Below are positions 720-28,859 of a DNA stretch of 32,292 nucleotides, one piece after another. The DNA comes from Ignavibacteria bacterium (GTDB taxonomy: Bacteria; Bacteroidota; Ignavibacteria; UBA10030), in NCBI GenBank assembly GCA_016873755.1, contig VGWB01000018.1, forward strand, positions 1 through 32,292, written 5' to 3'. The notes under the pieces are model-generated. The model made no database searches, was not told the DNA's origin, and saw only the letters and a program-made list of their open reading frames with translations. Made by a program: the position numbers and the translations under genes. Position 1 is the first letter of the stretch. Each line of letters starts with the position of its first letter.

Positions 720-752
720 CCCAACTGAATTGCAGTTGGGCTTTGTTTTTTT
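720..752 (+). terminator. Intrinsic terminator
   Basis: A perfect 8-bp stem CCCAACTG (720-727) / CAGTTGGG (733-740) has a 5-nt loop AATTG and is followed by CTTTGTTTTTTT. It probably ends transcription from the peptidase gene upstream. The T-run overlaps the beginning of the decayed GIY-YIG frame. Confidence 0.8.
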
Positions 753-1063
753 ATGGCTCCAGCGTGTTGTCGTGCCAGTTGGGGCGTCGCCCCGACTTTG
801 TCGGGATAAGGCACCCCGCTTTGCGGGGCATTCCCAGGTTCGAATCCATCGTTGAGCTTGAGAGACGGGAAATTCTACATCGGACATACCAATCGGCTCG
901 ACGATCGGATCAAACGTCACAATGAGGGAAGGGTCCCAGCAACGCGGCATCGAAGGCCTCTCACGCTGGTGTATTCAGAAACGTATCCGACGAGGGCTGA
1001 GGCGGTTCGCCGCGAACGATACCTTAAATCCCTTAAGGGTAATCAGACGTTTCGTGATATTAT

Positions 1064-1073
<10 letters not shown>
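743..1073 (+). pseudogene. GIY-YIG nuclease (UPF0213-like), interrupted
   Basis: The part from 852 to the TAG at 1071-1073 encodes LRDGKFYIGHTNRLDDRI, HNEGRVPATRHRRPLTLVY and AVRRERYLKSLKG. These are the YIG half, catalytic Arg region and Glu helix of small GIY-YIG proteins. The first strand, usually YYVYVL, is missing from this frame. A candidate for it, FFYGSSVLS, is encoded at about 746-772 in another frame. Removing 79 bp between two TCGT copies (770-773 and 849-852) joins the two into one continuous frame. The gene therefore looks inactivated by a short frameshifting insertion. Its last 10 nt overlap the tRNA-Gln gene. A short functional protein starting at TTG 852 cannot be excluded, but it would lack the GIY strand. 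Confidence 0.6.
770..848. repeat. 79-bp palindrome-rich insert carrying a tRNA T-arm fragment
   Basis: This segment contains three short palindromes in a row: GGGGCG-T-CGCCCC (781-793), CCCGAC-TTT-GTCGGG (791-805) and CCCCGC-TTT-GCGGGG (814-828). A 19-bp tract at 829-847 follows directly and is identical to positions 1106-1124 of the downstream tRNA-Gln gene, covering its T-arm. The block is bracketed by TCGT at 770-773 and 849-852, and it separates two halves of a GIY-YIG gene. It may be a REP-like or tRNA-derived mini-element. Confidence 0.55.
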
Positions 1074-1135
<62 letters not shown>

Positions 1136-1186
1136 CGCACACTTCCAGATTGAGCTCATTTCCTTCCACTCATTCTCGAGGAAATC

Positions 1187-2131
1187 ATGAGTGACCTAAA
1201 AGTCTTTTCGGGAAGGGCAAACCGTCCACTGGCAGAGAAGATTGCGAAGGCTGCAGGGGTTACACTGGGCAAGCTCGATATCAAGAACTTCAGCGACGGG
1301 GAAATTTGGGTCAAGTATTCCGACAACATACGCGGAGATGACATTTTCGTCATTCAGTCGACGCAGCCCCCGGCTGATAATCTGATGGAATTGTTGATTC
1401 TGATCGACGCAGCAAGGCGAGCGTCGGCACGACGCGTGACGGCGGTAATTCCCTATTTCGGCTATGCGCGGCAGGACCGGAAAGATCAGCCTCGTGTGTC
1501 TGTGACGGCAAAGCTTGTTGCCAATCTGATCACCGAGGCTGGAGCAGACCGTGTCATAGCAATGGATCTCCACGCGGCTCAAATCCAGGGATTCTTTGAC
1601 ATTCCACTCGATCACCTGTATGCTTCGGCCGTCTTTGCGGACTATTTCCGAAGGAAAAGGATTCCCAACCTCGCCGTCGTATCACCAGACGCCGGCGGGA
1701 TAAAGATTGCACGGTCCTACGCCAAACGCCTGGATGCTGATCTGATCCTGATCGACAAGCGCCGGCCAAAGAGCAACGAAGTTGAAGTGATGAACATCAT
1801 CGGCAACGTGAAAGGAAAGAACGTACTGATAATTGACGATCTTATCGACACAGGGGGCACGTTCGTGAACGCCGTTGGCGCACTCAAGCAAAGCGGGGCA
1901 AAGGACGTCTACGGCGTCTGCACCCATCCAATTCTCTCCGGCAGAGCCTTGGAGCAAATCAACAGCTCTCCGGTGACAGCTCTGGTAGTCACGGATTCCA
2001 TTCCACTGAAAGGCGTATCACCGAAGATCGAGTTGCGCTCTGTTGCTAAGCTTTTCGCCGAGGCAATCATCCGGACGCATAACAACCAATCCATTAGTTC
2101 ACTGTTCGATGTTGACAAAGACAGGCTATAG
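1187..2131 (+). CDS. prs: Ribose-phosphate pyrophosphokinase (PRPP synthetase)
   Basis: The enzyme transfers pyrophosphate from ATP to ribose 5-phosphate, giving PRPP for purine, pyrimidine, His, Trp and NAD synthesis in the cytosol. The 314-residue product has the family length. Visible hallmarks are DIFVIQSTQPPADNLMELL near residue 51, the FGYARQDRK ATP-binding loop near 95, DLHAAQIQGFFDIP near 127 and the PRPP-binding loop IDDLIDTGGTF near 215. The ATG at 1187 follows CTCGAGGAAATC, giving a GAGGA ribosome-binding site at suitable distance. It opens a cluster with rplY, pth, rpsF, rpsR and rplI, an order common in Bacteroidota and Chlorobiota. The gap to rplY is only 21 bp, so the two are probably cotranscribed. 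Confidence 0.97.
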   Translation: MSDLKVFSGRANRPLAEKIAKAAGVTLGKLDIKNFSDGEIWVKYSDNIRGDDIFVIQSTQPPADNLMELLILIDAARRASARRVTAVIPYFGYARQDRKDQPRVSVTAKLVANLITEAGADRVIAMDLHAAQIQGFFDIPLDHLYASAVFADYFRRKRIPNLAVVSPDAGGIKIARSYAKRLDADLILIDKRRPKSNEVEVMNIIGNVKGKNVLIIDDLIDTGGTFVNAVGALKQSGAKDVYGVCTHPILSGRALEQINSSPVTALVVTDSIPLKGVSPKIELRSVAKLFAEAIIRTHNNQSISSLFDVDKDRL

Positions 2132-24135: not shown

Positions 24136-24160
24136 AAAGTCCCCGACGAGGGGACTTTTC
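24136..24160 (+). terminator. Intrinsic terminator after second csp
   Basis: A 9-bp stem AAAGTCCCC (24136-24144) / GGGGACTTT (24150-24158) has loop GACGA and a short T-run. It lies in the convergent gap between the csp gene and rmuC and may also act on the minus strand. Confidence 0.7.
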
Positions 24161-27158: not shown

Positions 27159-28859
27159 TTAATCGTTTTCCAGCGTCGAAACGTCTCCGATCTCCTCTCC
27201 CCATTCTTTGGCGCGCAGCAACCTTCTCATGATCTTGCCGCTCCGCGTTTTCGGAAGTGAATCAACGTACTCGACCTCCTGCGGCATTGCCAGGGGAGAG
27301 AGTTTCTTGCGGATGAAGTTCATGATATCTATGGTCAGGTCATCGCTTTTCTGGTTGCCCGGCTTCAAGGCGATAAACGCCTTGACCACCTCCATGTTGA
27401 TCGGATCGGGCTTTCCCACAGCCGCGGACTCAGCCACCGCCGGATGCTCGAGCAGCGCCGATTCGATCTCAAAGGGTCCGACAAGATGTCCTGCGGTATT
27501 GATGACATCATCGTCTCGACCGACAAACCAGAAGTACCCATCCGCATCGACGCTGGACCGATCTCCGCTGATGTACCATCCGTTCTTAAATTTCTTCTCG
27601 TAAGTCTCCTGGTTGTTCCAGTACGTTCGAAACATGGATGGCCATCCGGGCTTTATGGCGATCAGCCCCACCGTCCCAGCCGTGGTGATAGGCTCAAACG
27701 TTTTGGGATTGACGACGGCGGCGGTAATCCCGGGGAATGGCTTGCCCATGGATCCGGGCTTGATCTTCATGCCTGGGTAGTTCGAGATCATAATCGACCC
27801 CGTCTCGGTCTGCCAGTACGAGTCGTGGAAGGGTCTCCCGAAGGCCTTCTCTGACCAGATGACGGCTTCCGCGTTCAACGGCTCGCCGACGCTGACCAGA
27901 TGTCGTAGTGACGACAGATTGTGCTTGCCCACCGGCTCCAGTCCCTCCTTCATCAGCAAACGAATCGCCGTCGGCGCAGAGTACCAAACCGTGACGTTGT
28001 GTTTCTCGATGAACGCATACCATTTGTGAGCGCTGAAGCCCGCATCGAGCACCGCTTGTGTGACTCCACAAGCCCACGGGCCAATGATGCCGTAGGATGT
28101 TCCCGTGACCCACCCGGGATCTGCAGTGCACCAGTAAATCTCATCGTCCTGAAGATCAAGTACCCATTTCGTTGTGATATGCTGGGCGATGATCGACGAG
28201 TGGACGTGCAACGCTCCCTTCGGCTTGCCCGTTGTTCCAGACGTGTAGTGCAAGACGGAAGGGGTTTCCGGGGTCACTTTAGCGATTTCGATGTTCTCCA
28301 CTCTCTGAGCCTTCTCCATGGAGAAGGCAATCTCTCCCCGTTCCAGAGGCCGATCGCCTGCATCAACCACGATGGTACGCGTGAGATGCGGAAGCGAGGG
28401 GCGAGTTCTCCTAACCTTCCCGAGATGCTTCCGCGTTGTGAGGATGGCCTTGGTTTCTGCATCCTCGAGACGCATAGCAAGTGCCTCCTCTCCGAACGCC
28501 GAGAAGAGGGGCTGGGCAATTCCACCCATCTTCAGGATTCCGATGAAGGAAATGTAGAGCTCAGGTATCCTGTCCATGAAAATACAGATCCTGTCTCCCG
28601 GCTGCAACCCGAGCTGCCTGAGCATGATTGCAAAGGCGTTGCTGTGGATACGAAGGTCGTCATAGGTGTAGCGTCTCACCTCTCCCGTAAAACCCTCCCA
28701 GATGAGTCCCACCCTGGTACCATTGCCGAGCTCCCCGATCCGATCAGTGCAGAAGTATCCGATGTTGTAGTTGCCGCTCTTCCCGTACTCAAGCTCCCCC
28801 TCCGCCAACTTCCAGCTGAACGTACGATGCCTTGTCTCATACGATCCGATATTGCTCAT
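27159..28859 (-). CDS. acsA: AcsA-type acyl/acetyl-CoA synthetase (AMP-forming)
   Basis: Adenylate-forming ligases activate a carboxylic acid as acyl-AMP and pass it to CoA, or in some systems to a carrier protein. Motifs: LHYTSGTTGKPKGALHVH (P-loop), YWCTADPGWVTGTSYGI, SVGEPLN, DSYWQTETGS, GWYISGDRSSVDADGYFWF, and the C-terminal catalytic Lys in PKTRSGKIMRRLLRA. The ending GDVSTLEND resembles Bacillus AcsA, suggesting acetate or another short acid. I chose ATG 28859 (MSNIGSYETRH), with GAGGAG 5 nt upstream; this ATG overlaps the acpS stop as ATGA. The 566 residues match AcsA. Direct transfer to the neighbouring ACP is possible, but it is only inferred from gene order. Confidence 0.88.
   Translation of the reverse strand: MSNIGSYETRHRTFSWKLAEGELEYGKSGNYNIGYFCTDRIGELGNGTRVGLIWEGFTGEVRRYTYDDLRIHSNAFAIMLRQLGLQPGDRICIFMDRIPELYISFIGILKMGGIAQPLFSAFGEEALAMRLEDAETKAILTTRKHLGKVRRTRPSLPHLTRTIVVDAGDRPLERGEIAFSMEKAQRVENIEIAKVTPETPSVLHYTSGTTGKPKGALHVHSSIIAQHITTKWVLDLQDDEIYWCTADPGWVTGTSYGIIGPWACGVTQAVLDAGFSAHKWYAFIEKHNVTVWYSAPTAIRLLMKEGLEPVGKHNLSSLRHLVSVGEPLNAEAVIWSEKAFGRPFHDSYWQTETGSIMISNYPGMKIKPGSMGKPFPGITAAVVNPKTFEPITTAGTVGLIAIKPGWPSMFRTYWNNQETYEKKFKNGWYISGDRSSVDADGYFWFVGRDDDVINTAGHLVGPFEIESALLEHPAVAESAAVGKPDPINMEVVKAFIALKPGNQKSDDLTIDIMNFIRKKLSPLAMPQEVEYVDSLPKTRSGKIMRRLLRAKEWGEEIGDVSTLEND

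Follow-up and report, generated by a model that had tools for sequence, protein, structure and literature searches.

The locus studied here poses a simple question: what is the short, palindrome-rich segment that lies between a terminator and a GIY-YIG nuclease gene, just ahead of tRNA-Gln, in the genome of an Ignavibacteria bacterium? The original prediction, made from the window (the whole 32,292-nucleotide stretch of DNA under analysis), was that a 79-bp insert bearing palindromes and a tRNA T-arm had split the GIY-YIG gene. We found that the features noted there are real, but that they do not add up to a 79-bp insert, a TCGT duplication, a restored reading frame or a repeat unit. Rather, a comparison of sequences makes it likely that the segment is a dead second tRNA-Gln gene, the footprint of a mobile, homing-type GIY-YIG cassette that resides in tRNA genes. 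The relevant features of the window are these:

720..752, + strand: intrinsic terminator (CCCAACTG..CAGTTGGG plus a T tract), preceding the tRNA-Gln leader; assigned from the sequence and from relatives
753..779, + strand: tRNA leader, in the same place as the leader of the intact tRNA-Gln in a related genome (G009, locus L015); no GIY-YIG HMM signal
780..847, + strand: psi-tRNA-Gln, with hairpins replacing the D-arm and the anticodon arm, the T-arm kept at 19/19 positions and the 3' acceptor strand gone
791..805, + strand: D-arm hairpin CCCGAC-TTT-GTCGGG, followed by the D-arm end ATAAGGCA
814..828, + strand: anticodon-arm hairpin CCCCGC-TTT-GCGGGG, with counterparts in two related genomes (G015, G009)
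829..847, + strand: kept T-arm CATTCCCAGGTTCGAATCC, identical to that of tRNA-Gln
852..1073, + strand: GIY-YIG nuclease gene, 5'-truncated (PF01541 profile, alignment A1, codon-position counts)
1064..1136, + strand: intact tRNA-Gln(TTG), the presumed functional copy (ARAGORN; Rfam RF00005, 67 bits)
1187..2131, + strand: prs (ribose-phosphate pyrophosphokinase; Pfam), a conserved downstream neighbor

All three of the tandem palindromes first described are present, at 781-793 (GGGGC-GTC-GCCCC), 791-805 and 814-828, but the first two are not independent: they overlap at 791-793 and thus cannot pair simultaneously, so that at most two hairpins can exist at once. The reported identity to the downstream T-arm is exact, with 829-847 matching tRNA-Gln 1064-1136 at 19 of 19 positions; apart from this segment, no 12-mer of the tRNA recurs elsewhere in the window on either strand. 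The likeness to tRNA-Gln does not end with the T-arm, as a 79-bp insert would have it, but continues across 780-847, where TGGGG, ATAAGGCA and CATTCCCAGGTTCGAATCC follow one another in tRNA order. This stretch reads as the 5' acceptor strand TGGGGCGT, a hairpin at the D-arm position (CCCGACTTTGTCGGG), the D-arm end, a hairpin at the anticodon-arm position (CCCCGCTTTGCGGGG) and the T-arm; the 3' acceptor strand is absent. By this collinearity, 780-847 is the relic of a second tRNA-Gln gene (psi-tRNA-Gln) whose arms have been remade as small hairpins. Folded as a single strand, 776-852 is moderately better than its dinucleotide shuffles, a weak effect (z of -1.5). Further, CCCGACNNNGTCGGGATAA occurs once in the window's genome, at this locus, and a search of that genome for further copies of the proposed 79-bp unit returned one DNA copy, that in the window. 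At the gathering threshold, Rfam reports only tRNA within the window, and no group I intron core. The window has other small structures as well. In the interval from the upstream gene to the terminator, 599-666 form a 68-bp MITE-like unit that has a hairpin inside and 10-bp inverted repeats (GTGTCCTAAT/ATTAGGACAC) at its ends; two perfect hairpins lie at 24136-24158 (AAAGTCCCCGACGAGGGGACTTT) and 28309-28328 (GCCTTCTCCATGGAGAAGGC).

The GIY-YIG gene matches PF01541 over profile positions 11-74 of 78 (53.6 bits against a cut-off of 22.6) and retains the YIG, R, H and E motifs at the invariant columns of our 27-row alignment (A1). It therefore shows the profile and the YIG, Arg and Glu motifs of the superfamily, but not the N-terminal GIY motif (the YVYVLRS region of its homologs), which is absent from every frame of 650-870. 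Because homologs possess this motif, the window's copy is a truncated relative and not a complete enzyme. Its stop codon falls within the tRNA-Gln gene. Differences from the GIY-YIG gene of G009 are distributed 25:13:52 over the three codon positions; their concentration at third positions implies that the protein was formerly under selection. The closest solved relatives by sequence are the single-domain GIY-YIG proteins of the UPF0213 group (PDB 1zg2 and 1ywl), which are hypothetical proteins from other bacteria. Judged from these sequences, the window's cassette is decaying: its GIY-YIG gene is without its first catalytic motif, and its psi-tRNA without its 3' end.

These observations bear directly on the proposed split gene. 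Removal of 79 bp does join two open frames, but this is a matter of arithmetic only; the peptide thereby appended, FFYGSSVLS, is the terminator T-tract and tRNA leader read as codons, and with it the GIY-YIG HMM score is 106.7 bits, against 106.2 without it. When orthologous GIY-YIG genes are compared, their N-termini prove to be different (MFSVYVLRS, MFFVYVLQS) and adjoin a tRNA. The TCGT at both ends, read as a target-site duplication, is a 4-bp match that nothing supports. An insertion of a palindromic cassette into a GIY-YIG frame is thus almost certainly the wrong account, real though the palindromes, the T-arm and the joined frames are, and we reject it: the upstream frame has no GIY-YIG likeness (the gain of 0.5 bits), its stretch is a terminator and tRNA-Gln leader that recur at orthologous loci devoid of the nuclease, the remaining segment is collinear with tRNA-Gln, and the orthologous genes start elsewhere. 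What survives of the cassette idea is the link between a GIY-YIG nuclease, a segment derived from a tRNA, and recombination or mobility, though the segment does not lie within the GIY-YIG gene. On the refutation proposed with that idea, the lack of any further 79-bp copy in this genome counts against it, but its expectation that copies elsewhere would bear parts of the tRNA nearest to them is strongly upheld at other loci.

Using prs as an anchor, we located the orthologous loci of relatives. The cassette-free arrangement is terminator, tRNA-Gln, prs. Eight genomes of the window's own family (G017, G010, G006, G013, G001, G004, G012 and G003) carry tRNA-Gln ahead of prs and lack a GIY-YIG gene there, and a terminator like that at 720..752 precedes tRNA-Gln in G017, G006, G010 and others that lack the nuclease. 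In G009 and G008 (L016), an intact tRNA-Gln is followed by a full GIY-YIG gene and then by a psi-tRNA-Gln; the window has the opposite order, with psi-tRNA-Gln first, then the truncated gene, then the intact tRNA. The counterpart of the anticodon hairpin in G009 is TCCCGTCAGCTTGCTGACGGGA. G015 (L174) represents a third genus and has the prs most similar to the window's (85%). Its psi-tRNA-Gln has D and anticodon hairpins in the two positions that they occupy in the window; the counterparts are TCCTGACAAGTCGGGATAAGGCA for the D hairpin (the hairpin also given as TCCTGACAAGTCGGGA) and TCCCGTCAGATTTATCTGACGGGG for the anticodon hairpin. The same locus also contains an insert in the T-arm and a piece of another psi copy. 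By eye, G002 retains a short 3' remnant of a GIY-YIG gene adjoining tRNA-Gln, and its congener G017 is empty. The gene is therefore present or absent at an otherwise orthologous tRNA-Gln/prs site even within one genus, a trait of free-standing homing endonucleases such as SegB. Empty, occupied and remnant loci together indicate that the cassette comes and goes here, and that breakage can affect either of the two tRNA copies.

The arrangement extends well beyond tRNA-Gln. Searches with the window's protein and an alignment of its homologs, together with the stretches around the matches listed, yielded 174 distinct small GIY-YIG genes. An intact tRNA (tmRNA in two cases) lies no more than 400 bp away from 108 of the 140 with full context, at a median distance of 32 bp; it is co-oriented with the gene in 107 of these 108, upstream in 54 and downstream in 53. 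The 78 named loci, which are biased toward the tRNA-Leu group because they were found with A2, the tRNA-Leu subset of A1, have a tRNA within 500 bp in 41 of 65 cases, versus 9 of 126 control windows placed 2 kb away on the same contigs. In 86 of 116 cases (one in the reversed-flank control), the intact tRNA faces, across the GIY-YIG gene, a partial and collinear duplicate of itself; this duplicate is the 5' part of the tRNA when upstream of the gene and the 3' part when downstream. A perfect stem of at least 5 bp is present in 84% of 94 clean inserts in these partial copies, and in 27% after shuffling. Inserts occur in the T-arm (29), D-arm (28), anticodon arm (27), variable region (9) and 5' acceptor strand (2). 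Fourteen of the T-arm inserts share one point, TTC^GA, 18 nt from the 3' end, and a frequent insert in Bacteroidota and Patescibacteria is CCTGCCTGCCGGCAGGCAGG, a palindrome placed where the D-loop ends. The break points of the psi-tRNAs vary, so they do not define a single insertion site. About a quarter of the GIY-YIG genes lie away from tRNAs; a sister group whose members end in inverted repeats accounts for many of them.

The cassettes also form tandem arrays. One has five GIY-YIG genes with a 450-bp period following a tRNA-Leu (L321), another has three with a 306-bp period after a tRNA-Ser, and a third has three ahead of a tRNA-Ser; because all occur in complete, single-contig genomes, they are not assembly artefacts. 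The repeated units, with periods of 306-450 bp, hold a GIY-YIG gene and a psi-tRNA only, and the proteins are about 80 amino acids long, with no known DNA-binding domain. This trio of broken tRNA, nuclease gene and intact copy of the same tRNA, recurring in several phyla, resembles a miniature parasite resident in tRNA genes. Searches of the openly licensed PMC literature turned up neither bacterial GIY-YIG/tRNA cassettes nor the 20-bp palindrome; as far as that literature shows, the pattern is undescribed in bacteria, and the window is a decayed example of it.

Several individual loci deserve mention. A four-unit tandem array in the cultured Zunongwangia atlantica (G061:C1:126400-129500, L243) has units of psi-tRNA-Arg, palindrome and GIY-YIG gene, with a 316-bp period, ahead of an intact tRNA-Arg, and would be a convenient test system. 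In two genomes of one genus (G026 and G028, with loci L026 and L025), the same tRNA-Leu relic has two hairpins in one genome, and two further hairpins plus a hairpin nested within a hairpin in the other, a stepwise accumulation. At two loci (L090 and L127), tmRNA replaces tRNA beside the GIY-YIG gene; a partial tmRNA copy was sought across the gene at both, and none was found. At five named loci (L018, L043, L030, L034 and L037) and others, the GIY-YIG gene extends at its 3' end into the tRNA, so that the tRNA encodes protein tails such as GVAQPG and ERGAAR, and such tails are probably frequent on annotated GIY-YIG proteins.

Does the nuclease discriminate among tRNAs? On a tree of 167 proteins, 111 of them labeled by the neighboring tRNA, the isotype changes 37 times, against a mean of 78 and a minimum of 71 in 500 label shuffles, a comparison in which host relatedness is partly controlled. 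Clades for Gln, Leu, Arg, Pro, Ser, Asp, Cys and Asn are visible. The window, G009 and G008 make up the starred tRNA-Gln clade, and one tRNA-Leu clade spans Ignavibacteriota, Bacteroidota and Patescibacteria. The side on which the intact tRNA lies switches often inside clades (29 changes). The alignment has few columns, and the deep forks of the tree are thus unsure. With host relatedness partly controlled, the tree indicates that nuclease lineages follow tRNA isotype, i.e., that each would have its own target gene.

One could ask whether the psi-tRNA is itself a working, tRNA-like RNA, e.g., one that signals processing or regulation of the GIY-YIG transcript. The hairpins do persist at the same positions in related genera, with pairing kept despite sequence change, and the nearly uniform co-orientation of nuclease and tRNA (107/108) would suit such a role. 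But the 3' strands of the T-stem and the acceptor are missing in the window, break points differ between loci, and pairing can persist without selection, as mutation that perfects imperfect palindromes can maintain it. We therefore regard a functional RNA as highly improbable.

The palindromes also occur outside these loci. Of 61 related genomes, 26 contain dispersed copies of the double hairpin TGCGCCnnnGGCGCATCNGCCnnnGGCNGA (the reversed-pattern control gave 0), which prefers TC^GA sites, that of the tRNA T-loop included; a looser double-hairpin pattern has 33 copies in the window's genome. The palindrome CCTGCCTGCCGGCAGGCAGG is present at 1-24 copies per genome in 11 of 14 genomes; 25 of 63 inspected copies lie no more than 500 bp from a tRNA, and 10 no more than 500 bp from a GIY-YIG gene. 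We also considered the window's D hairpin as a dispersed repeat and rejected it, since its pattern, unlike the other hairpin type, is single-copy in the genome. Two psi-tRNAs (L272 and L273) carry the palindrome with no GIY-YIG gene.

That the nuclease causes nothing of this is another proposal: recombination-prone tRNA duplications would trap a bystander GIY-YIG gene, and independent palindromes would fill the redundant copy. The dispersal of palindromes to places far from both tRNAs and GIY-YIG genes speaks for this account, as do the two nuclease-free psi-tRNAs. A bystander would not be expected to fall into isotype-specific clades that cross phyla, nor to keep so tight a spacing (median 32 bp) and a common orientation with its tRNA, and we consider the proposal unlikely.

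The sister group of GIY-YIG genes away from tRNAs introduces a further consideration. Inverted repeats of at least 12 nt surround 19 of 42 non-tRNA GIY-YIG genes (null, 0), and the sister-group genes lie between the conserved inverted repeats ACCCCGTTAGAGAT / ACCCCGTGAGATA. These elements (L113, L094, L105, L117, L129, L282, L293, L308, L309 and others) are mostly 275-296 bp long, with perfect inverted repeats (ACCCCGTTAGAGATA in Patescibacteria, ACCCCGTGAGATA in the window's order). They look like some of the smallest possible autonomous mobile elements. An empty version, ACCCCGTGAGATA-8 nt-TATCTCACGGGGT, lies at G058:C106:2425-2458 (L341), in a genome that also has the full elements L282 and L308. 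Two other loci were read by eye. At G292:C1:1621500-1623500 (L340), a GIY-YIG gene is apparently inserted in a protein gene: a fragment like the start of a nucleotide-sugar dehydratase is followed by the GIY-YIG gene and then by the complete gene with a differently coded start. At G354:C1:2617000-2619000 (L328), a gene of the four-helix-bundle type is seemingly interrupted, likewise by a GIY-YIG gene, between inverted repeats.

RAYT transposases are the presumed movers of REPs, and this relationship is a model for supposing that the GIY-YIG enzyme moves the hairpins as its non-autonomous partners, with tRNA loops as their preferred landing place. Hairpins on nearly every psi-tRNA fragment, the conserved inverted repeats around sister-group genes (19 of 42, against a null of 0) and the empty version in a genome with full ones speak for this idea. 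In the phylum sample, every genome that has genuine double-hairpin elements also carries GIY-YIG genes, but this co-occurrence is confounded by descent. Further, empty sister-group hairpins are otherwise missing (that one in 61 genomes, none in 12), the window's D hairpin is not multicopy, and palindrome families vary between lineages. Such a coupling is doubtful. A broader proposal, which we offer tentatively, is that minimal GIY-YIG genes with GC-rich hairpins (about 280-450 bp) could be widespread miniature bacterial mobile elements, of which the tRNA-isotype branch leaves hairpin-filled relics, the inverted-repeat sister branch settles elsewhere, and the dispersed palindromes are non-autonomous derivatives. 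If this last point were true, GIY-YIG enzymes would mobilise orphan palindromic repeats.

The homing-type cassette of tRNA genes remains the account we favor, and its operation may be pictured as follows. The nuclease would cut its cognate tRNA gene in the D-, anticodon- or T-arm, and repair of the break from an occupied donor would copy the cassette into the gene, duplicating part of the tRNA. One intact tRNA would be left, allowing the host to survive, and repeated events or unequal crossing-over could give rise to the tandem arrays. The spare copy would be unconstrained, and palindromic mini-elements could gather in its loops, where they may also block removal of the cassette by recombination. 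A counterpoint is that the intact tRNA beside the cassette should stay cleavable unless a flank or junction protects it. If this account is right, many bacteria carry in their tRNA genes a tiny nuclease parasite, specific for one isotype, that persists by always sparing one tRNA. The account would then cover the swarms of small GIY-YIG ORFs, the tails that tRNAs encode for them, tRNA pseudogenes and perhaps the contig breaks of draft genomes at tRNAs, and both the target choice of a minimal GIY-YIG domain and the mover of palindromic repeats that have no known transposase would become testable.

Known systems share parts of this picture. Tyrosine-integrase islands in tRNA genes also duplicate part of a tRNA and leave one intact copy, but the cassettes are without an integrase gene, for which array periods of 306-450 bp are too short, and they insert on either side of the tRNA. 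REP/RAYT systems and the orphan CGTC repeats, which are said to lack a known transposase (PMC3733652), resemble the hairpins in being short, GC-rich palindromes, often dimeric and dispersed in the genome. Dispersed palindromes do occur at loci related to the window's, although its own D hairpin is single-copy. The neighboring gene here is a GIY-YIG nuclease; a tyrosine transposase flanked by palindromes is absent from the array units, which hold only GIY-YIG and psi-tRNA, and the inserts concentrate in tRNA arms.

Phage SegB is the nearest tested precedent. Published accounts (PMC2988022; PMC13096335; Brok-Volchanskaya 2008 as cited there) describe the T4/T6 protein as a free-standing GIY-YIG homing endonuclease of tRNA clusters. 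It cuts inside tRNA genes at the motif RAWTSGAAC and drives tandem tRNA-segB amplification, in which a microhomology shared by the 5' end of the tRNA and the 3' end of segB is the site of recombination; the study reports no bias toward any isotype (PMC13096335). By our own reading, the reverse complement of this motif fits the T-arm GTTCGAATC, near the preferred TTC^GA insertion point. The bacterial cassettes share with SegB a free-standing GIY-YIG gene beside tRNA genes and the tandem amplification of tRNA and nuclease, and presumably, as their sequences suggest, the cutting inside tRNA genes for which SegB has been tested. Unlike SegB, they reside in the chromosomes of several phyla, consist of the nuclease domain only (about 80 amino acids), carry a hairpin-bearing broken copy of one cognate tRNA, and fall into isotype-specific lineages. 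By analogy, the cassettes are best explained as homing-type elements that behave like SegB.
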